From Rhizobium sp. L43 (GTDB lineage Bacteria; Pseudomonadota; Alphaproteobacteria; Rhizobiales; Rhizobiaceae), in contig NZ_NWSQ01000012.1 in assembly GCF_002531725.1 (NCBI RefSeq), positions 62,001 to 126,000 on the forward strand: a stretch of 64,000 nt of DNA, read 5' to 3'. Position numbers and translations under genes: made by a program. Below are positions 23,245 to 36,196 of the stretch, one piece after another. Each line of letters starts with the position of its first letter. Within the stretch, counting starts at the first letter, position 1. The notes below the pieces were generated by a model, which had not been told where the DNA came from, did not search any database, and worked only from the letters and a program-made list of their open reading frames with translations.

Positions 23245-24534
23245 TCAGCTGGTGATGCGCGGCGCGCGGATAACTTTGAGGAAAAGCGCCTTCATCGCAT
23301 CGGTGATCCCTTGGGTCGGCGTCACCTCGAAATAGAGGCCGGGCGAGGCGCATTCCTGCATCTTCGTCGGGATCTGGCTTTGGAAGGGGCTGATCCACGT
23401 ATTATACCAGCTGTTTTTCGGCAGAGGCAGGTAGGTGGTGTAGAGCACTGCGATCCTGATGCCCTTGTCCTTGATCGGCTGGCAGAAAGACGTGTCGATC
23501 GGTTCCTGGCAGCGGTTGCCGGTGAGCTTTTTGGTGCAGCCCTTCGGCTTCTCGCTGTCGCCGACGCCGTCCGAAACGAAGAACAGGATTTTCTGCGGGG
23601 TCGCCGACGTGCTGCCGTCGCCTGGCGTCGTGATGATGGTTTTCATCTGCGTCAGCGCGTTGTCGAAGCTCGTCTGCTGGTCGTTGTTATAGCCCTGCTT
23701 CGGGATCGTCATCAGGTCAACGGCGTCGGTATAGCTGCGCACCTGGTCGAGATCGTCCGTCGGATCGGATATGGTGGTCAGCCTGGCATCTTCGGCCTTG
23801 GTGCCGAAGGTATAAACGCCCATGCGGAACTGGTTGTTGGAAACGCGCGTGGACTTCGCAGTCAGCGTCAACTCCTTGGTCGCCTGGCGCACGACGTCGA
23901 TGCGCATGCTGACGCCGAGCTTCTTGGCAAGATTGTAATAGTTGTTTTTGTTTTCCGTTTCGTGGCAGGCGAAGGCACAGCTATCGCTGGTGTTTTTTTC
24001 CATCGTCGCGACGTCGGTCGCGGTGGCGCCGACACCCATCGAGGGGGTGTTGTCGAGCAGGATGTAGAAATCCATGAAGGAGGCGGTCTGGTATTCGGCC
24101 GTCGCCGTGCCCGAGATGGTAATCGAATCCCTGCCGAGAACGCGCATGAAGGTGGTGGGCACGGTCGCGTTGAAGGAAACCTGCGAATTCAGTTTGTTGG
24201 CGGCCTTGGTGACGTCGATGCCGAGATCCACTTTGACGTCTGTCAGCTCCCCGGACATCTGAGACATGAAGATGCTGCGGGCATCGTCCTTGCCGAGCGA
24301 AATCGTGCCGTTGCCGCTCATCGTCATGGCGGCTGCAACCGCGCCGGATTTTTCGGCGATCGAACCGACGGCGGCGGCATCGGCGGCGGCGTAAAGCTGT
24401 GTCCGGAGGCTCAGCGCGTGGGCGAAATCCACCGCCAAGCCTGCCGTACCGAGGAGCGGCACCATCAGCAGTGCGGTCATGATACCGAAATTGCCCGAGC
24501 GGTCCGCTATGAAACCGGGCAGAAGCATCGCCAT
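23245..24534 (-). CDS. TadG-like protein with von Willebrand factor A domain
   Basis: A 429-residue envelope protein. Residues about 1-45 contain the TadE/TadG-type N-terminus: a polar start, DRSGNFGIMTALLMVPLLGTAGLAVDFA as single membrane helix with a Glu-free TadG-like pattern. From about residue 155 a VWA domain follows, with the MIDAS-like motif LLDNTPSMGVG (Thr in place of the first Ser) and a later FVSDGVGD. Four or more Cys pairs in the VWA part suggest disulfides in the periplasm. TadG proteins accompany Flp-type pilus systems, but no tad gene is nearby, so this is an orphan member. Confidence 0.85.
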   Translation of the reverse strand: MAMLLPGFIADRSGNFGIMTALLMVPLLGTAGLAVDFAHALSLRTQLYAAADAAAVGSIAEKSGAVAAAMTMSGNGTISLGKDDARSIFMSQMSGELTDVKVDLGIDVTKAANKLNSQVSFNATVPTTFMRVLGRDSITISGTATAEYQTASFMDFYILLDNTPSMGVGATATDVATMEKNTSDSCAFACHETENKNNYYNLAKKLGVSMRIDVVRQATKELTLTAKSTRVSNNQFRMGVYTFGTKAEDARLTTISDPTDDLDQVRSYTDAVDLMTIPKQGYNNDQQTSFDNALTQMKTIITTPGDGSTSATPQKILFFVSDGVGDSEKPKGCTKKLTGNRCQEPIDTSFCQPIKDKGIRIAVLYTTYLPLPKNSWYNTWISPFQSQIPTKMQECASPGLYFEVTPTQGITDAMKALFLKVIRAPRITS

Positions 24535-24791
24535 GACATGTCCCCACTGTTGAAACCCTTTTGCGGTTTTACATGCAAAGTCTAAAATATAGGGAAATCG
24601 ACATAGTATATGCTGGTTTAATGGTAGAATTGACGGCTTTTGCTACCTATATGCGAGCTCTCGCCGACGGCGACAGCGCGGGCGATCGAGCTTTGGGTGA
24701 TTGGCCTTTGCAAGGCCGATCTAAAGGTCTATAAGCCGCCGCAATTCAGGATAGGGGCATCCCGGGGACGGGTGCGAGTGAGGTGAGTGAA

Positions 24792-26165
24792 ATGGCAGAG
24801 AATTGGACCCCGAGCAGCTGGCGGCAAAAACCGATCCTGCAGGTTCCGGAATATCCCGACGCAGCCGCTTTGGCGGCAACGGAAGCCACGCTCGCCAGCT
24901 ATCCGCCGCTCGTCTTCGCCGGTGAGGCGCGCCGCCTGAAAAAGCATCTTGCCAATGTCGCCGAAGGCAACGGCTTCCTGCTGCAGGGCGGCGACTGCGC
25001 CGAGAGCTTCGCCGAACACGGCGCCGACAATATCCGCGACTTCTTCCGCGCCTTCCTGCAGATGGCCGTCGTGCTGACCTTCGGCGCGCAGCTGCCGGTC
25101 GTCAAGGTCGGCCGCATTGCCGGCCAGTTCGCCAAGCCGCGTTCGTCGAATGTCGAGAAGCAGGGCGATGTGACGCTGCCGGCCTATCGCGGCGACATCA
25201 TCAACGGCATCGAGTTCACCGAGGAGTCGCGCATTCCGAACCCGGAACGCCAGGCCATGGCCTATCGCCAGTCGGCCGCGACGCTGAACCTTCTGCGCGC
25301 CTTCGCGATGGGCGGCTACGCCAATCTCGAAAACGTCCATCAGTGGATGCTGGGCTTCGTCAAGGACAGCCCGCAGGGCGAGCGCTACCGCAAGCTTGCC
25401 GACCGCATCAGCGAAACCATGGATTTCATGAAGGCGATCGGCATCACCTCGGAAAACCATCCGAGCCTGCGCGAGACCGATTTCTTCACCAGCCATGAGG
25501 CGCTGCTGCTCGGCTACGAGGAGGCGCTGACCCGCGTCGATTCCACCTCGGGCGACTGGTATGCCACATCAGGCCACATGATCTGGATCGGCGACCGCAC
25601 CCGCCAGGCCGACCATGCGCATGTCGAATATTGCCGCGGCATCAAGAACCCGATCGGCCTGAAATGCGGCCCGTCGCTGCAGGCCGACGATCTGCTGCAG
25701 CTGATCGACATCCTCAATCCGGCCAACGAAGCCGGCCGTCTGACGCTGATCTGCCGCTTCGGCCATGAGAAAGTCGCCGAGAACCTGCCGCGGCTCATCC
25801 GCGCCGTCGAGCGCGAAGGCCGCAAGGTCGTCTGGTCCTGCGACCCTATGCACGGCAACACGATTACGCTCAACAACTACAAGACCCGTCCCTTCGAGCG
25901 GATCCTGTCGGAAGTCGAAAGCTTCTTCCAGATCCACCGCGCCGAAGGAACGCATCCCGGCGGCATCCATATCGAGATGACCGGCAAGGACGTGACGGAA
26001 TGCACCGGCGGCGCCCGCGCCGTCACCGCCGACGACCTGCAGGACCGCTACCACACCCATTGCGACCCGCGCCTCAACTCCGACCAGGCGCTCGAGCTCG
26101 CCTTCCTGCTTGCCGAGCGCATGAAGGGCGGCCGCGACGAGAAGCGGATGGTCGCCAACGGCTGA
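24792..26165 (+). CDS. Class II 3-deoxy-7-phosphoheptulonate (DAHP) synthase
   Basis: It catalyses the first shikimate-pathway step: phosphoenolpyruvate plus erythrose 4-phosphate gives DAHP. The 457-residue sequence is the plant/Mycobacterium-like class II type, unrelated in sequence to the class I enzyme at 32279. Typical blocks are [33 protein letters not shown] and [20 protein letters not shown], with metal-ligand Cys, His, Glu and Asp residues. The ATG at 24792 is chosen (AGG 8 nt upstream); a GTG at 24783 is possible. The 257-bp leader shows no attenuator or leader peptide. A strong terminator follows. Confidence 0.96.
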
Positions 26166-31469: not shown

Positions 31470-32297
31470 ATGCGCAGCTCGGTCGAGATCTATAATGTCA
31501 GGACGGGCAGGGCGCGCGAAGTCTGGCAGACGGACAGGCTGGTCGAAGCGCCGAACTTTTCACCTGATGGTTCCTACCTGCTGCTGAACGGCGACGGGCT
31601 GCTCTATCGGCTGCCGCTCGATGGCGGCGAGGTCACCAAGGTCGATACCGGCTTTGCCGTCAACTGCAACAATGATCACGGCATTTCGCCCGATGGCACA
31701 GAGATCGTCATCTCGGACAAGACCGAATTCGGCAAGTCGGCGATCTATGTCCTGCCGATCGAAGGCGGCACGCCGCGGCTCGTCACGCAAAACCTGCCGT
31801 CCTACTGGCACGGCTGGTCGCCGGATGGCCGCCAGCTTGCCTATTGCGGCATCCGCGACGACCTCTTCGACATCTATACGATCTCGGTCGATGGCGGCGC
31901 CGAGACGCGGCTGACGCATGGTGAGGGCCGCAATGACGGGCCGGATTATTCCGCCGACGGGCAATGGATCTATTTCAATTCCAGCCGCACCGGTTTGATG
32001 CAGATCTGGCGCATTCACCCCGACGGCACCGAGCTGGAGCAGGTCACCTCGGACAATCAGGGCAACTGGTTCGCCCATCCGTCCCCCAAAAACGACAAGG
32101 TGCTGATCCTCTCCTACGACCCCTCGGTTTTCGACCATCCGCGCGATCTCGACGTGCGGCTGCAATTGATGGACATGGACGGCGGCAATCTGAAGACGCT
32201 GTTCGAGCTGTTCGGCGGGCAGGGCACGATCAACGTGCCCTGCTGGTCTCCTGACGGCGAAGAATTCGCCTATGTGCGCTATTTCCCGGCCGACTGA
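31470..32297 (+). CDS. TolB-like beta-propeller (PD40 repeat) protein
   Basis: The 275-residue protein consists of WD40-like PD40 repeats, recognisable as repeated SPDGxxL/I blades (NFSPDGSYLLL, ISPDGTEIVIS, WSPDGRQLAYC, YSADGQWIYFN, WSPDGEEFAYV). This is the fold of the TolB C-terminal domain, but no signal peptide is present, so it is likely cytoplasmic. A GGGGAGG ribosome binding site precedes the ATG. The role is unknown; related proteins are often called TolB-family or transporters by mistake. Its 3' end overlaps the convergent class I DAHP synthase gene by 19 bp. Confidence 0.85.
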   Translation: MRSSVEIYNVRTGRAREVWQTDRLVEAPNFSPDGSYLLLNGDGLLYRLPLDGGEVTKVDTGFAVNCNNDHGISPDGTEIVISDKTEFGKSAIYVLPIEGGTPRLVTQNLPSYWHGWSPDGRQLAYCGIRDDLFDIYTISVDGGAETRLTHGEGRNDGPDYSADGQWIYFNSSRTGLMQIWRIHPDGTELEQVTSDNQGNWFAHPSPKNDKVLILSYDPSVFDHPRDLDVRLQLMDMDGGNLKTLFELFGGQGTINVPCWSPDGEEFAYVRYFPAD

Positions 32298-33355
32298 ACG
32301 CGGGTCCGGCGCCGCTCGCGGGCGGATTTTGCCAGGTCTTCCAGCACCGCGACCGACATATCCCAGTCGATGCAGCCGTCGGTGATCGACTGGCCGTAGA
32401 CCAGCGGCTTGCCGGGAACGAGATCCTGGCGGCCGGCGACGAGGTTGCTCTCGATCATCATGCCCTTAATGTCGCTATTTCCGGCGGCGATCTGCGCGGC
32501 GACGGACTTGACGACGCGCGGCTGGTTCATCGGGTCCTTGCCGCTGTTGGCATGGCTGGCATCGACGAGGATGCGCGGGGCGACGCCGAGCTTGACGGCT
32601 TCGGTCGTGACCGCTGCGATGTCGGCCGCCTCATAGTTCGGCTGTTTGCCGCCGCGCAGGATGATGTGGCAGTCCTCATTGCCTCTCGTCGAGGCGATCG
32701 CCGCCTGTCCGTCCTTGGTGACGGCCGGGAAGTGATGCGGCTGCGAGGCGGCCAGGATCGCGTCGAGTGCGACGCGGGCGCTCCCATCGGTGCCGTTCTT
32801 GAAGCCGATCGGGCAGGAGAGACCGGAGGCAAGCTGGCGATGGATCTGGCTTTCGGTCGTGCGCGCACCGATCGCGCCCCAGCTGACGAGGTCGGCAATG
32901 TATTGCGGCGTGATCGTGTCGAGGAATTCGACGCCAGCCGGAAGGCTCATGGCATTGATGTCGAGCAGCAGGCGCCTGGCAATCCTCAAGCCTTCCTCGA
33001 TGCGGTAGCTGCCGTCGAGATGCGGGTCGTTTATCAGGCCCTTCCAGCCGACGGTGGTGCGGGGTTTTTCGAAATAGACGCGCATGACGATTTCCAGATC
33101 GTCGGAGAAGCGCTGTCGCTGTTCCTGGAGCCGTGCGGCATATTCCCGGGCGGCAACGGGGTCATGGATGGAGCAGGGGCCGATGACGACGGCCAGGCGA
33201 TCGTCTTCGCCCTGGAGAATTTTATGGATCGCATCGCGATTGCTGGTCACGGTCTCGGTGACAACAGCGTCGCGGTGGATTTCCGCGAGGATATCGGCGG
33301 GTTTGGTCAGCGGCGTGATCTCGAGGATTCGCAGATCATCAATGGTATCGGGCAC
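32279..33355 (-). CDS. Class I 3-deoxy-7-phosphoheptulonate (DAHP) synthase, attenuator-controlled
   Basis: A class I-alpha (AroF/AroG/AroH-type) DAHP synthase of 358 residues. Typical blocks are VIGPCSIHDP, EKPRTTVGWKGLINDP, GARTTESQIHRQLASGLS, FKNGTDG, LRGG and DASHANSGKDP. It carries out the same reaction as the class II enzyme encoded at 24792. It is preceded by a 24-codon leader peptide and a terminator/antiterminator pair, so its transcription should rise when charged aromatic tRNAs run low. The E. coli class I genes are instead controlled by TyrR or TrpR. The C-terminal tail is basic. The gene overlaps the convergent propeller gene by 19 bp. Confidence 0.95.
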   Translation of the reverse strand: MPDTIDDLRILEITPLTKPADILAEIHRDAVVTETVTSNRDAIHKILQGEDDRLAVVIGPCSIHDPVAAREYAARLQEQRQRFSDDLEIVMRVYFEKPRTTVGWKGLINDPHLDGSYRIEEGLRIARRLLLDINAMSLPAGVEFLDTITPQYIADLVSWGAIGARTTESQIHRQLASGLSCPIGFKNGTDGSARVALDAILAASQPHHFPAVTKDGQAAIASTRGNEDCHIILRGGKQPNYEAADIAAVTTEAVKLGVAPRILVDASHANSGKDPMNQPRVVKSVAAQIAAGNSDIKGMMIESNLVAGRQDLVPGKPLVYGQSITDGCIDWDMSVAVLEDLAKSARERRRTRVQSAGK

Positions 33356-33389
33356 GGTATGGCTCCTGTTTGGTCATACCGGGCGGAAC

Positions 33390-33479
33390 AAAAAAGCCGC
33401 CAGGTAGACTAGCGGCTGTTCGGGTTGTCGTCGCGTCGACTTCAGTTACGCATAGACCCGCATCCGCTGGGAGCAGCGG
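33390..33479 (-). promoter_or_regulatory. Transcription attenuator of the class I DAHP synthase gene
   Basis: Segment 1 CCGCTG (33479-33474) pairs with segment 2 CAGCGG (33469-33464) as a pause hairpin overlapping leader codons 14-16. Segment 2, read as CCAGCGG, can instead pair with segment 3 CCGCTAG (33415-33409), six of seven positions. Segment 3, read as AGCCGC (33417-33412), pairs with segment 4 GCGGCT (33400-33395), followed by six T (33395-33390): a Rho-independent terminator 35 bp before the gene. Pairings 2:3 and 3:4 exclude each other. Confidence 0.85.
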
Positions 33480-33520
33480 TACCAATAAAATCGCGAGGCG
33501 TAGATCGAAGTGGTCGACAT
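33446..33520 (-). CDS. 24-aa aromatic-rich leader peptide
   Basis: The peptide is MSTTSIYASRFYWYRCSQRM followed by RVYA. Six of 24 residues are aromatic, and codons 11-14 are TTT TAT TGG TAC (Phe-Tyr-Trp-Tyr), placed just before the 5' arm of the pause hairpin. A ribosome stalled there would free segment 2 to form the antiterminator. All three aromatic amino acids could thus be sensed. The ribosome binding site is weak (no clear GGAG within 12 nt of the ATG), and a longer open frame extends upstream. The identification rests on codon content plus the RNA structure rather than on homology. Confidence 0.8.
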   Translation of the reverse strand: MSTTSIYASRFYWYRCSQRMRVYA

Positions 33521-33617
33521 CAGGCGTATGTAGCGTCGCAACCGGGTGATGTCACGCAGAATTTGCGGCCTGAAAATCCCGCTCCTGCGGGACCAGCGAT
33601 CGCTTCCGCAGAGAGGC

Positions 33618-33660
33618 AAAAAGCATATCGCCCAAAAGCGCGCTGCTTCTGGGCGATATG
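33618..33660 (-). terminator. Rho-independent terminator of the chemoreceptor operon, repeat-like
   Basis: The perfect 11-bp arms CATATCGCCCA (33624-33634) and TGGGCGATATG (33650-33660) are followed on the minus strand by CTTTTTGCC. The hairpin is a looser relative of the CGACATGC/CCCAAAA stem-loop repeats at 7841 and 28941. Confidence 0.75.
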
Positions 33661-33675
33661 AACGCAAAGCTGAGA

Positions 33676-34257
33676 TCAGAGAGCGTCGACGGTCACGCCG
33701 ACTGTGATGGCGCCGATCGGCGTTCCCTTGTCATCTGAAATCGTGACGCTTGCCTGCGACTGCAGCGTCTGGGTCGATTCGTCCTTTTCGATCTCATCGA
33801 CGAAGACGGCGTCCTTGCCGGCGCCGAAGGATTTCTGGAACTTGCCCTCGTCGCCCTGCCAGTAGTCGGAGGTGGGATCGCTTTGGCCGACATTCAGGCC
33901 CTTTGCATCCATGACGAAGATCTCCGCAATCTTGCCGTTGGACGCAGCCTTCTTTTCCTGAAGGAATTTTGACAGCGCATTGCCGAGCACGCCGTCGATC
34001 ATCGAATGGTCGGAACCATCGACCTCGGCACGCCACTTCTTATCGAGGGCGTCGATATCGGCCTGGCTGAGATTGGCGTTTGCGGCATTCTGTGCCTTGA
34101 TGGCCTCGATGACGGCGGGGTCGTTCAGCCAGGGTTTTACGTCGCTTGTCACATAGTCGGAGATCGGGGCAAGCTTCGCATCCTGTGCCATGGATACGCC
34201 CGTAGTCACGGCAACTGCGGTGCAGGCCAAAAGCAATGCGGTCACAACTTTCTTCAT
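33676..34257 (-). CDS. Secreted Cache/PDC-like sensory protein
   Basis: A 193-residue protein with a Sec signal peptide (cleavage after SMAQ, about residue 25). The mature part resembles a single Cache/PDC ligand-binding domain: helical first half, then IAEIFVMDAKGLNVGQSDPTSDYWQGDEGKF and the closing TISDDKGTPIGAITVGV strand pair. It has no membrane anchor, so it should be free in the periplasm. It lies 61 bp downstream of a chemoreceptor gene on the same strand, which suggests that it feeds a signal into that receptor. Cache assignment is by pattern and moderately sure. Confidence 0.7.
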   Translation of the reverse strand: MKKVVTALLLACTAVAVTTGVSMAQDAKLAPISDYVTSDVKPWLNDPAVIEAIKAQNAANANLSQADIDALDKKWRAEVDGSDHSMIDGVLGNALSKFLQEKKAASNGKIAEIFVMDAKGLNVGQSDPTSDYWQGDEGKFQKSFGAGKDAVFVDEIEKDESTQTLQSQASVTISDDKGTPIGAITVGVTVDAL

Positions 34258-34318
34258 AACTGTTCCCTTCCTGATTATGGGATGTTGAGGAATAAAAGCT
34301 TATCGAACGAAGAGGGCG

Positions 34319-36196
34319 TCAGAACTCTTCCCAGGCACCGGGAGAAGCGGCGACGGCGGCGTTTCCCGTATGTCGCTGCGAAAAGACTCTCTGTTCCGGG
34401 CGAGGTTGGTGAATGCCGGGTTGAGCGGGTTTGGGCTGGCTGGCGGCAGAGGCGCCAACGGTGAACCTGCCGGCCGAATCCTGCAGAAGGCGTCCCTGCG
34501 TGCGCAACTCCTGGCAGGCCGCGTTGGTCTCCTCGACCATGGCCGCGTTCTGCTGTGTGGCCTGATCCATCTGATTGATCGCGCCATTGATTTCCTGCAG
34601 GCCCGTCGCCTGTTCGCGATAGGACTGGACAATCGAAGCGATGCTGTCGCTGATGCGGTTGATCTGCTCCTCGATCTTCAGGAGGGCATCGCCGGTCTCG
34701 TTCACCAGCCCGACGCCCGCCGCAACCTCCTGGCCGGATACGTTGATCAGGTTCTTGATTTCCTTTGCCGCATTGGCGGACCGCTGGGCGAGTTCCCGCA
34801 CTTCCTGCGCGACGACCGCAAAACCCTTGCCCGCTTCACCGGCACGCGCCGCCTCGACGCCGGCGTTCAGTGCCAGCAGGTTCGTCTGGAAAGCGATTTC
34901 ATCGATGACGCCGATAATGCGGCCGATCTGGCTCGACGAGGTCTGGATCCGATCCATCGCTCCGATCGCGTCGCGTACCACCGTCGCCGAGACATGAGCG
35001 CTGCGCTTGGTTTCCTCGACCAGCTTGCCGGCATTTTCGGCCCGCTGCGACGAGGTTCTGACCGTCGTCGTCACCTCATCGAGGGCTGCGGCGGTCTCTT
35101 CCAGGGCGGCGGCCTGCTGCTCTGTCCGCCTGGCGAGCTGATCGGCGGAGGAGGCCAGCTCGCTTGAGCCGCCTTCAACCGCGACGGAGGCGGTCTTAAT
35201 CTCTGTCAGCGCGGCCGCGACCGCCTGGACCATGTTGTTGAAATCCTGCCGCAATTTGTCGAATTCAGGACCAAGATCGGCCAGCTGTATCGAGAAGTCG
35301 CCTGCGGCAAGCTTTTCCAATTCATTGGCGAGCGCGGTCATGACCAGCCGCTGAGCGTTGCTCACCTCTTCCGTCAACAGTGCGTTGCGCGCCCGTTCGG
35401 CGTCGAACGAGGCGCTCTGCTCGGCAGCGGCCCGCTCTCTTTCGATCTTGGCAATCGCCTCGTTACGGAAAACCTCCAAGGCCCGTGCCAGGAAGCCGAT
35501 CTCATCGCCATTTTCCCGGTAGGTGATGGGAGAGGCCAGGTCGCCTTTCTGCAAGGCGCTGATTCTTTCGCTGAGAATCCTGAGGGGGCGGCCGACGAGG
35601 CTGCGCATGGCGAGAAGAAAAGCGACAACGGCCATGGCGGTGATCGCGAACTGCGTCAGAAGCGAAATCAGGACCTTCTGCTTGACTTCGGCAGCAATTT
35701 TTTCGACCGACCAGTTCGTAACGACGTAGCCGGTAGCCTTGCCTGCCTTATCCAGCGGAAGCGGTGCAATGATCGTCACGACGCCGGCAGATATTCCGCC
35801 GTCATCGATCGTCGTTTTTTCCGGCTTGGCGCTGAGGCGCTTCGCCAGATCGGCAGGCGCCGGCAAACCGTCAATGCCGTCGCGCGTCCATGTATCGACA
35901 GCGGCGGGTTCCGCATTGAAGGCGGCAAATTGAACAAGGTCGAGCGAGGGATCGTCGCGGTACAGCGAATAGGCTTCGCGAACGGCGTTCGCCTTGCCCC
36001 ATTTCACGCCGCCGGCAGCCAGAGACGCAAACTGCTCCGCATCCTTGGACCAGTTCGCCTTGGCGCCATCGATCAACGCTTTGGTTTCGTACATCCATGT
36101 ATAGGCGGCAAAGGCGGAAATGCCACAGAGGTTGACGGCAACGATAATCGCCGCCAGCTTGGCTGTCAGAGGCATCGTTTTCAAAAATTGGAACAT
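34319..36196 (-). CDS. Methyl-accepting chemotaxis protein
   Basis: A 625-residue transmembrane chemoreceptor. The first membrane helix is at about 12-32, a periplasmic sensor of about 150 residues follows, and the second helix is at about 175-200. Two HAMP-like segments follow (LVGRPLRILSERISALQKGD and a second around LEKLAAGDFSIQL). The signalling tip is the conserved IIGVIDEIAFQTNLLALNAGVEAARAGEAGKGFAVVAQEVR. The C-terminus ends in the pentapeptide AWEEF, the CheR/CheB docking motif (xWxxF). It is the first gene of a two-gene operon with a periplasmic Cache-like protein. The ligand is unknown. Confidence 0.95.
   Translation of the reverse strand: MFQFLKTMPLTAKLAAIIVAVNLCGISAFAAYTWMYETKALIDGAKANWSKDAEQFASLAAGGVKWGKANAVREAYSLYRDDPSLDLVQFAAFNAEPAAVDTWTRDGIDGLPAPADLAKRLSAKPEKTTIDDGGISAGVVTIIAPLPLDKAGKATGYVVTNWSVEKIAAEVKQKVLISLLTQFAITAMAVVAFLLAMRSLVGRPLRILSERISALQKGDLASPITYRENGDEIGFLARALEVFRNEAIAKIERERAAAEQSASFDAERARNALLTEEVSNAQRLVMTALANELEKLAAGDFSIQLADLGPEFDKLRQDFNNMVQAVAAALTEIKTASVAVEGGSSELASSADQLARRTEQQAAALEETAAALDEVTTTVRTSSQRAENAGKLVEETKRSAHVSATVVRDAIGAMDRIQTSSSQIGRIIGVIDEIAFQTNLLALNAGVEAARAGEAGKGFAVVAQEVRELAQRSANAAKEIKNLINVSGQEVAAGVGLVNETGDALLKIEEQINRISDSIASIVQSYREQATGLQEINGAINQMDQATQQNAAMVEETNAACQELRTQGRLLQDSAGRFTVGASAASQPKPAQPGIHQPRPEQRVFSQRHTGNAAVAASPGAWEEF

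Follow-up and report, generated by a model that had tools for sequence, protein, structure and literature searches.

Organisation of the locus

The window analysed here, a stretch of 64,000 nucleotides from Rhizobium sp. L43, carries on its minus strand a gene for a class I DAHP synthase of the AroG type, with matches to TIGR00034 (517 bits, cut-off 173) and PF00793, and with the Phe-regulated E. coli AroG (1gg1/1kfl, 453 bits) as its closest PDB entry. All the parts of a transcription attenuator named in the original prediction, including a 24-codon leader with the consecutive codons TTT TAT TGG TAC (33520-33446), a CCGCTG/CAGCGG hairpin, a terminator and the strands of an antiterminator, are present upstream of this gene on the minus strand between 33520 and 33390. 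The features, all on the minus strand, are as follows:

33550-33555 (minus): predicted -35-like element GTGACA, at -35 to -30 from the leader ATG
33527-33532 (minus): predicted -10-like element TACATA, with T at -12 and A at -11 from the leader ATG; transcription is predicted to start at the A of that codon
33446-33520 (minus): leader ORF MSTTSIYASRFYWYRCSQRMRVYA, 24 codons and TAA; ATG at 33520, stop codon at 33448-33446
33479-33490 (minus): candidate stall codons TTT TAT TGG TAC (Phe Tyr Trp Tyr), of which those for Phe and Tyr, unlike that for Trp, are conserved
33474-33479 (minus): strand 1, CCGCTG; 33502-33493 pairs further out in the minimum free energy (MFE) fold
33457-33469 (minus): strand 2, CAGCGG (33469-33464) and CGGG (33460-33457), partner of strand 1 or of strand 3
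33409-33424 (minus): strand 3, CCCGAACAGCCGCTAG, which forms the antiterminator's 3' side and the left arm of the terminator
33390-33417 (minus): intrinsic terminator AGCCGCTAG-TCTAC-CTGGCGGCT with six T; hairpin 33417-33395, T-run 33395-33390
33361-33367 (minus): ribosome binding site AGGAGCC of the structural gene
32279-33355 (minus): class I DAHP synthase gene, AroG type, 358 aa, GTG start at 33355

Two of these features were refined on closer reading: the terminator, predicted as AGCCGC/GCGGCT followed by six T, has a stem of 9 bp (AGCCGCTAG/CTGGCGGCT) and a T-run ending 34 nt before the GTG of the gene; and the predicted antiterminator strands CCAGCGG and CCGCTAG exist, with one C-A mismatch between them and with a second block in which CGGG (33460-33457) faces CCCG just 5' of the terminator. 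The synthase gene is probably monocistronic, since its downstream neighbour (31470-32297, plus strand) is convergent, and appears to be a unit of its own, as the gene preceding it ends in its own terminator-like hairpin (33659-33625). No Rfam family matched the attenuator, either in window positions 32000-35000, where Trp_leader and Phe_leader were sought at E up to 1, or at the gathering cut-off in the loci of 12 relatives; the sole hit, BASRCI27 (33611-33767, 17.8 bits, cut-off 59.8), was taken as chance.

E. coli AroG residues F209 and S211 align with F209 and A211 of the window's enzyme. Feedback inhibition of AroG presumably follows a Ser or Gly rule at residue 211, and as Ala fits neither, no inhibitor was predicted from this position. 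Further upstream, a 193-aa protein with a signal-like N-terminus (33676-34257, minus strand) has no match in Pfam or NCBIfam; its gene lies just downstream of that of a methyl-accepting chemotaxis protein (34319-36196), and a secreted partner of the adjacent receptor is one guess at its role.

Conservation within the genus

The class I gene is found in 119 of 148 genomes of the genus, and its upstream DNA was read for 118 of these; the remaining one, G086, has a terminator pattern beside its class I gene. A leader with an aromatic core is present in 114 of the 118 (107 among the first 110 read; of the remaining eight, six by a mechanical detector that seeks a short aromatic ORF followed by a terminator, and one, L288, by eye), and four genomes (G064, G065, G144, G145) keep the gene without a leader. 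These four (loci L184, L185, L186 and L289, in the order G144, G064, G145 and G065) keep a 69-70% identical class I gene and have neither leader nor terminator.

The terminator pattern occurs in exactly one copy in each of 113 of the 148 genomes and in none of the 29 genomes that have no class I gene, with no occurrence of the reversed pattern used as a control. In 112 of the 118 upstream regions fetched it stands no more than 150 nt from the gene. The detector was positive in 110 of 118 upstream regions, as against none of 590 dinucleotide shuffles and none of 99 upstream regions of long open frames in the window. Of its eight misses, four are the genomes that lack a leader; the others are the window's own copy, L082, L091 and L116, where the terminator of the preceding gene outscores that of the synthase leader.

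The leader reading frame appears to be under selection, since its length is fixed at 24 codons in 105 of 107 Rhizobium relatives while the stop codon differs (TAA, TAG or TGA) and the spacer that follows varies from 28 to 35 nt. The residues after the stall codons (RC.QR.R..A) are likewise conserved in most Rhizobium leaders. As the MFE of 33530-33386 by itself is only mildly unusual (z -1.92, with 6 of 200 shuffles at least as good), the case for the element rests on conservation and not on folding energy. The proposed attenuator of the trp or phe type before a class I DAHP synthase gene is supported by relatives that keep both the leader codons and the helices, and so survives the refutation that had been set for it.

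Promoter placement and the start of the leader

For comparison, four leader sets were picked by hand among the leader-positive loci and used for the promoter, Shine-Dalgarno and core codon counts as well as for the helix alignment: Rhizobium (107), other Alphaproteobacteria (47), a Xanthomonas type (14; 8 named and 6 loci assigned by resemblance) and a Burkholderia type (30; 22 named and 8 loci assigned by resemblance). The counts that followed the promoter reading leave out L030 and L032, and the Burkholderia set does not include the leader-positive beta-type loci L045, L051, L054, L057-L060, L064 and L069.

Among the Rhizobium promoters, GAC stands at -33 from the leader ATG in 105 of 107, and TA with its T at -12 likewise in 105 of 107; GAC at -33 and TA at -12/-11 are the canonical sigma-70 places for a transcript starting at the A of the ATG itself. 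In the other Alphaproteobacteria, TA with its T between -14 and -11 is present in 45 of 47 and both elements in 43, including L002, whose leader starts with GTG. The Xanthomonas type has TA at -14 or -13 in 13 of 14 and GAC at the -35 place in none, and the Burkholderia type has TA near -10 in 5 of 30 and both elements in none.

Shine-Dalgarno-like duplexes (-5 kcal/mol or lower in equal 35-nt windows) are far commoner before the structural gene than before the leader: 69 vs 16 of 107 in Rhizobium, 39 vs 4 of 47 in other Alphaproteobacteria, 11 vs 0 of 14 in the Xanthomonas type and 30 vs 0 of 30 in the Burkholderia type. Promoter placement and the mostly missing Shine-Dalgarno together point to an mRNA that is probably leaderless. 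This prediction is made for Alphaproteobacteria and, with less certainty, for the Xanthomonas type, and is not extended to the Burkholderia type. The weak ribosome binding site that had been regarded as the soft spot of the proposal therefore loses its force, as the promoter is placed for a transcript beginning at the ATG.

Alternative helices and covariation

Covariation was assessed on 153 distinct sequences (of 168; 95 from Rhizobium, with the Burkholderia type left out). The terminator is paired in 98.8% of 1375 cells (shuffled mean 97.6%), and a two-sided exchange from G-C to A-T is seen in 11 of the 153. In the antiterminator, the upper block (CAGCGG with CCGCTA) is paired in 87.4% of cells overall, against a shuffled mean of 83.6% and 48.6% when slid by one column, with 82.6% in Rhizobium, which is no more than in shuffles. 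One of its columns holds A-T in 90, G-C in 58 and T-T in 5 of the 153 sequences, the A-T to G-C exchange (58/153) being essentially one split between Rhizobium and the others; the outermost column is unpaired, with C-A in 87 of 95 Rhizobium sequences, and the column next to it is T-T in 5 of the 95. The lower block (CGGG with CCCG) is paired in 81.6% of cells overall (shuffled 78.9%) and in 99.2% in Rhizobium, where one two-sided exchange, read as L179, was seen.

The hairpin of strands 1 and 2 is paired in 78.7% of cells overall (shuffled 76.5%) and in 98.4% in Rhizobium (95.4%), with two-sided exchanges at two columns in 5 of 95 (T-A to G-T) and 4 of 95 Rhizobium sequences; outside Rhizobium, strand 1, as read by eye, seems to be placed elsewhere. 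As judged from this alignment, conservation of the helices is strong and covariation modest, the latter being thin because the helices are nearly invariant in Rhizobium.

When strand 1 of a model RNA is masked and the RNA stops short of strand 4, it folds as the antiterminator (-19.6 kcal/mol); once strand 4 is included, the best fold has the terminator again (-28.0 kcal/mol). Since a released RNA refolds with the terminator once strand 4 exists, antitermination would have to be kinetic, as it is in the classical trp attenuator.

Amino acids read by the leader

The cores of the 107 Rhizobium leaders are RFYSYR in 62, (R)FYWYR in 38, RFYYFR in 5, and RFYCYR and RFHWYR in one each, so that the third core codon is Ser in 62, Trp in 39 (38 FYWY and one FHWY), Tyr in 5 and Cys in one. 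The Trp and Ser codons (TGG and TCG) lie one base apart, and within one clade, on a 63-row tree built from neighbouring DNA, they interchange at least eight times (17 or more with shuffled labels). Across all four sets, no core lacks Phe and a single one, in the Burkholderia type, lacks Tyr (24 of 25 there have it); Trp occurs in 34 of 41 distinct peptides of the other Alphaproteobacteria and in all 11 of the Xanthomonas type, and in none of the 25 distinct peptides of the Burkholderia/Oxalobacter type. From these codon counts it is concluded that the conserved signal would be Phe and Tyr, with Trp an optional input present in some species only. Equal sensing of all three aromatic amino acids by one leader, which had been suggested from the window's own sequence, is rejected as a conserved function on the codon counts in relatives, the Trp codon being found in just 39 of 107 Rhizobium leaders. 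As one stall codon (Trp, Ser or Tyr) varies among close relatives, these form a natural series in which the number of amino acids read by one leader is directly testable.

Distribution beyond the genus

Among 80 named relatives, which are the best tblastn matches among the matches listed and not a random sample, the detector was positive at 56, against 1 of 400 shuffles. Their leaders differ in sequence and share an aromatic core, for example SYFWYFSYD in Bradyrhizobium, TYWYFSS in Mesorhizobium, YSYWYF in Devosia, RYYWYFSYP in Methylosinus, SFYFWYYGFP in Xanthomonas, LYFWFYGYP in Rhodanobacter and Dyella, KFYFYFFWYL in Burkholderia and YFYFS in Janthinobacterium/Massilia; the four named enterics among these best relatives (Pantoea, Citrobacter, Pectobacterium and Erwinia) were negative. 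In the family sample outside the genus, 11 genomes have the gene and 10 of 11 loci are leader-positive. One locus, L202 (G415), keeps the leader start and YWYF codons with no detectable terminator, and is perhaps an attenuator that has decayed into constitutive expression.

In the sample of Alphaproteobacteria, the class I gene is present in 18 of 387 genomes, and 14 of 16 loci were positive by the detector, against none of 80 shuffles; of the two others, L212 has an aromatic core and terminator by eye, and L216 is truncated at the edge of its contig. In the phylum sample, where 220 genomes had a match and 61 loci were scanned (21 among the best-scoring and 40 picked for family spread among the matches listed, with the best match alone read in genomes with two or three class I genes), 29 of the 61 were positive and 32 negative, against none of 305 shuffles; by eye, an aromatic ORF and terminator are visible in three of the negatives (L258, L272 and L274). 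L272-L274 (family code f174) and L276 (f205), from other gamma-type genomes, have F/Y/W-rich leaders, such as MQARTSFYFYFWFSSPAEER, before the class I gene.

On a tree of 114 labelled AroG proteins, leader presence changes state 7 times, against at least 19 with shuffled labels, which indicates that the leader tends to be passed on along with the gene and is at times lost or gained. These labels come from a looser leader scan combined with visual inspection, by which L032 and L212 were scored positive; L057 was positive in the looser scan and negative by the detector, and L037, L202 and L216 were left unlabelled. A Rhizobium-like leader, WFYYFRSCQRMRAAV, lies upstream of the gene in Pseudogemmobacter hezensis (Paracoccaceae; L032), whose AroG sits on a long branch that clusters with the clade of the window's enzyme, and horizontal transfer of the gene together with its attenuator is possible.

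Proposed mechanism and alternative explanations

The element is read, with a probability of about 0.88, as a ribosome-mediated transcription attenuator by which the class I DAHP synthase would be set by the supply of charged tRNA-Phe and tRNA-Tyr. From its anatomy, its conservation, the promoter placement and the lack of a Shine-Dalgarno before most leaders, all of them features of the sequences themselves, we infer stalling, antitermination and a leaderless start. RNA polymerase would start at, or a base or two from, the A of the leader ATG, and the transcript would be translated as a leaderless mRNA. With Phe and Tyr plentiful, a ribosome at the stop codon would cover strand 2 (CAGCGG..CGGG), leaving strand 3 (CCCG..CCGCTAG) to pair with strand 4, and transcription would end at 33390. 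With Phe or Tyr short, the ribosome would stall on TTT TAT .. TAC and mask strand 1 (CCGCTG) and the bases before it, so that strand 2 could pair with the emerging strand 3, no terminator would form and the enzyme would be made; a Trp codon, where present, could add a Trp input.

The alternatives differ from this reading to varying degrees. That the conserved piece is an ordinary terminator of the preceding gene beside a chance ORF draws on little more than the commonness of intergenic terminators, and is refuted for practical purposes: the preceding gene has the terminator-like hairpin of its own noted above, and the ORF, its codons and the terminator are conserved together, within the genus only alongside aroG. 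A main role as a trans-acting small RNA or small peptide, with attenuation secondary, is highly improbable, even though termination would yield a leaderless mRNA some 131 nt long, built like rnTrpL, and the RC.QR.R..A residues are conserved in most Rhizobium leaders; these residues are encoded by the helix strands, and they differ in other genera that keep those strands.

Two further alternatives keep the attenuator and change one of its properties. A normal 5' UTR, with the leader started by a weak Shine-Dalgarno, is quite unlikely: the promoter is a prediction, an SD-like stretch lies within 35 nt of 16 of 107 Rhizobium leaders, and both the Burkholderia type (TA in 5 of 30, both elements in none) and the Xanthomonas type (TA at -13/-14 in 13 of 14, GAC at the -35 place in none) depart from the pattern; set against this are promoter elements at the places predicted for a leaderless start, in 105 of 107 loci from Rhizobium and in 43 of 47 from other Alphaproteobacteria, and the excess of SD-like duplexes before the gene over those before the leader. 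Sensing of Phe, Tyr and Trp alike, which would suit the FYWY core of the window's strain and the Trp codon of 34 of 41 other alphaproteobacterial and 11 of 11 Xanthomonas-type distinct peptides, is unlikely: 68 of 107 Rhizobium leaders do without that codon (Ser takes its place in 62, Tyr in 5 and Cys in one), none of the 25 distinct peptides of the Burkholderia/Oxalobacter type has it, and it is exchanged with Ser at least eight times on the tree of 63 rows. The preferred reading, a well supported and widespread Phe/Tyr attenuator that in Alphaproteobacteria is probably leaderless, also leaves room within its input: codon content does not settle which amino acid is read, since the comparable Phe-Tyr-Phe leader of Corynebacterium glutamicum responds, according to a review, to Phe and not to Tyr.

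Relation to known attenuators and regulatory context

The logic of stall codons and of 1:2, 2:3 and 3:4 pairings is common to the pheA and trp attenuators of E. coli, which precede another gene and have the Phe_leader and Trp_leader families that the Rhizobium element does not match. An attenuator at a DAHP synthase gene has a precedent in aroR-aroF of C. glutamicum, reportedly the subject of Neshat et al. in 2014. According to PMC11802643 and PMC4046766, DAHP synthase is attenuated there via a Phe-Tyr-Phe leader peptide, ribosome stalling raises transcription, and limitation of Phe induces it while that of Tyr does not. Both systems place a leader with F/Y codons before a DAHP synthase gene, but C. 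glutamicum is an actinobacterium, the likeness is one of codon content and position, and the Rhizobium element differs in having an AroG-type proteobacterial enzyme as its target and a promoter that abuts the start codon. As aroR-aroF attenuation is already in print, the element is a widespread proteobacterial case of a known kind.

The nearest likeness among rhizobia is the trpE(G) attenuator of S. meliloti, rnTrpL/peTrpL, whose RNA starts at the leader ATG and for which functions in trans are known, as set out in PMC10117765 and PMC7298713. An RNA start at the leader ATG, established there, is predicted for the Rhizobium element, which would likely make it a second case of a leaderless attenuator in rhizobia; the S. 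meliloti system differs in its Trp codons, its target trpE and its peptide. By description, a further similarity is seen with uORFC-13-1, a motif predicted upstream of aroF, a DAHP synthase gene, in Acholeplasma, in which a uORF containing Phe codon(s) is followed by a terminator. PMC8632094 gives 24 representatives of it from Acholeplasma and environmental sequences, and also cites a hypothesis of 1980 that E. coli aroF is attenuated. Apart from that hypothesis, no description of an attenuator at a proteobacterial DAHP synthase gene was found in the parts consulted of the open-licence PMC literature, and a mention in the survey of Vitreschak et al. (2004) is possible. The question of earlier description, which the original prediction had left open, thus divides: the kind is known, with C. 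glutamicum as its published precedent, and the proteobacterial family seems not to have been described.

In E. coli, according to published work, the DAHP synthase genes are under TyrR/TrpR. A TyrR-type HTH was sought in 49 genomes, with E. coli detected as a control, and was found in none of 25 counted leader-positive against 11 of 24 counted leader-negative genomes, where G848, G962 and G979 were counted positive from a terminator read by eye and G1080, with an F/Y ORF upstream and no terminator, was counted negative; Fisher's test gives 8.6e-5 with relatedness ignored, and the genomes are not independent. This distribution agrees with the published statement that many Gammaproteobacteria have a conserved TyrR, which the other classes lack, and suggests a possible control of the entry step of the shikimate pathway in proteobacteria without TyrR. 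A broader scenario is offered tentatively, at rather less than even odds: one ancient attenuator module may have remained beside the class I DAHP synthase gene in Alpha- and Betaproteobacteria and in part of the Gammaproteobacteria, where it would take the role that TyrR has elsewhere. In Alphaproteobacteria it would have joined with a promoter of its own and so become leaderless; its input (Phe and Tyr, with Trp coming and going repeatedly) would be retuned through changes of single codons, and its terminated RNA may act in trans like rnTrpL.

A class II DAHP synthase is encoded in all 148 genus genomes, against 119 with class I; since every genome also has the class II enzyme, the attenuated class I enzyme is probably the adjustable member of a class I/class II pair. 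The window's class II gene (24783-26165, plus strand; PF01474, 705 bits) lies 6 kb from the class I gene, and no leader was found before it, either on reading 24300-24782 or by the detector. Class I and class II genes also lie within about 10 kb of each other in several other genomes of the genus (for example G010, G014 and G057).
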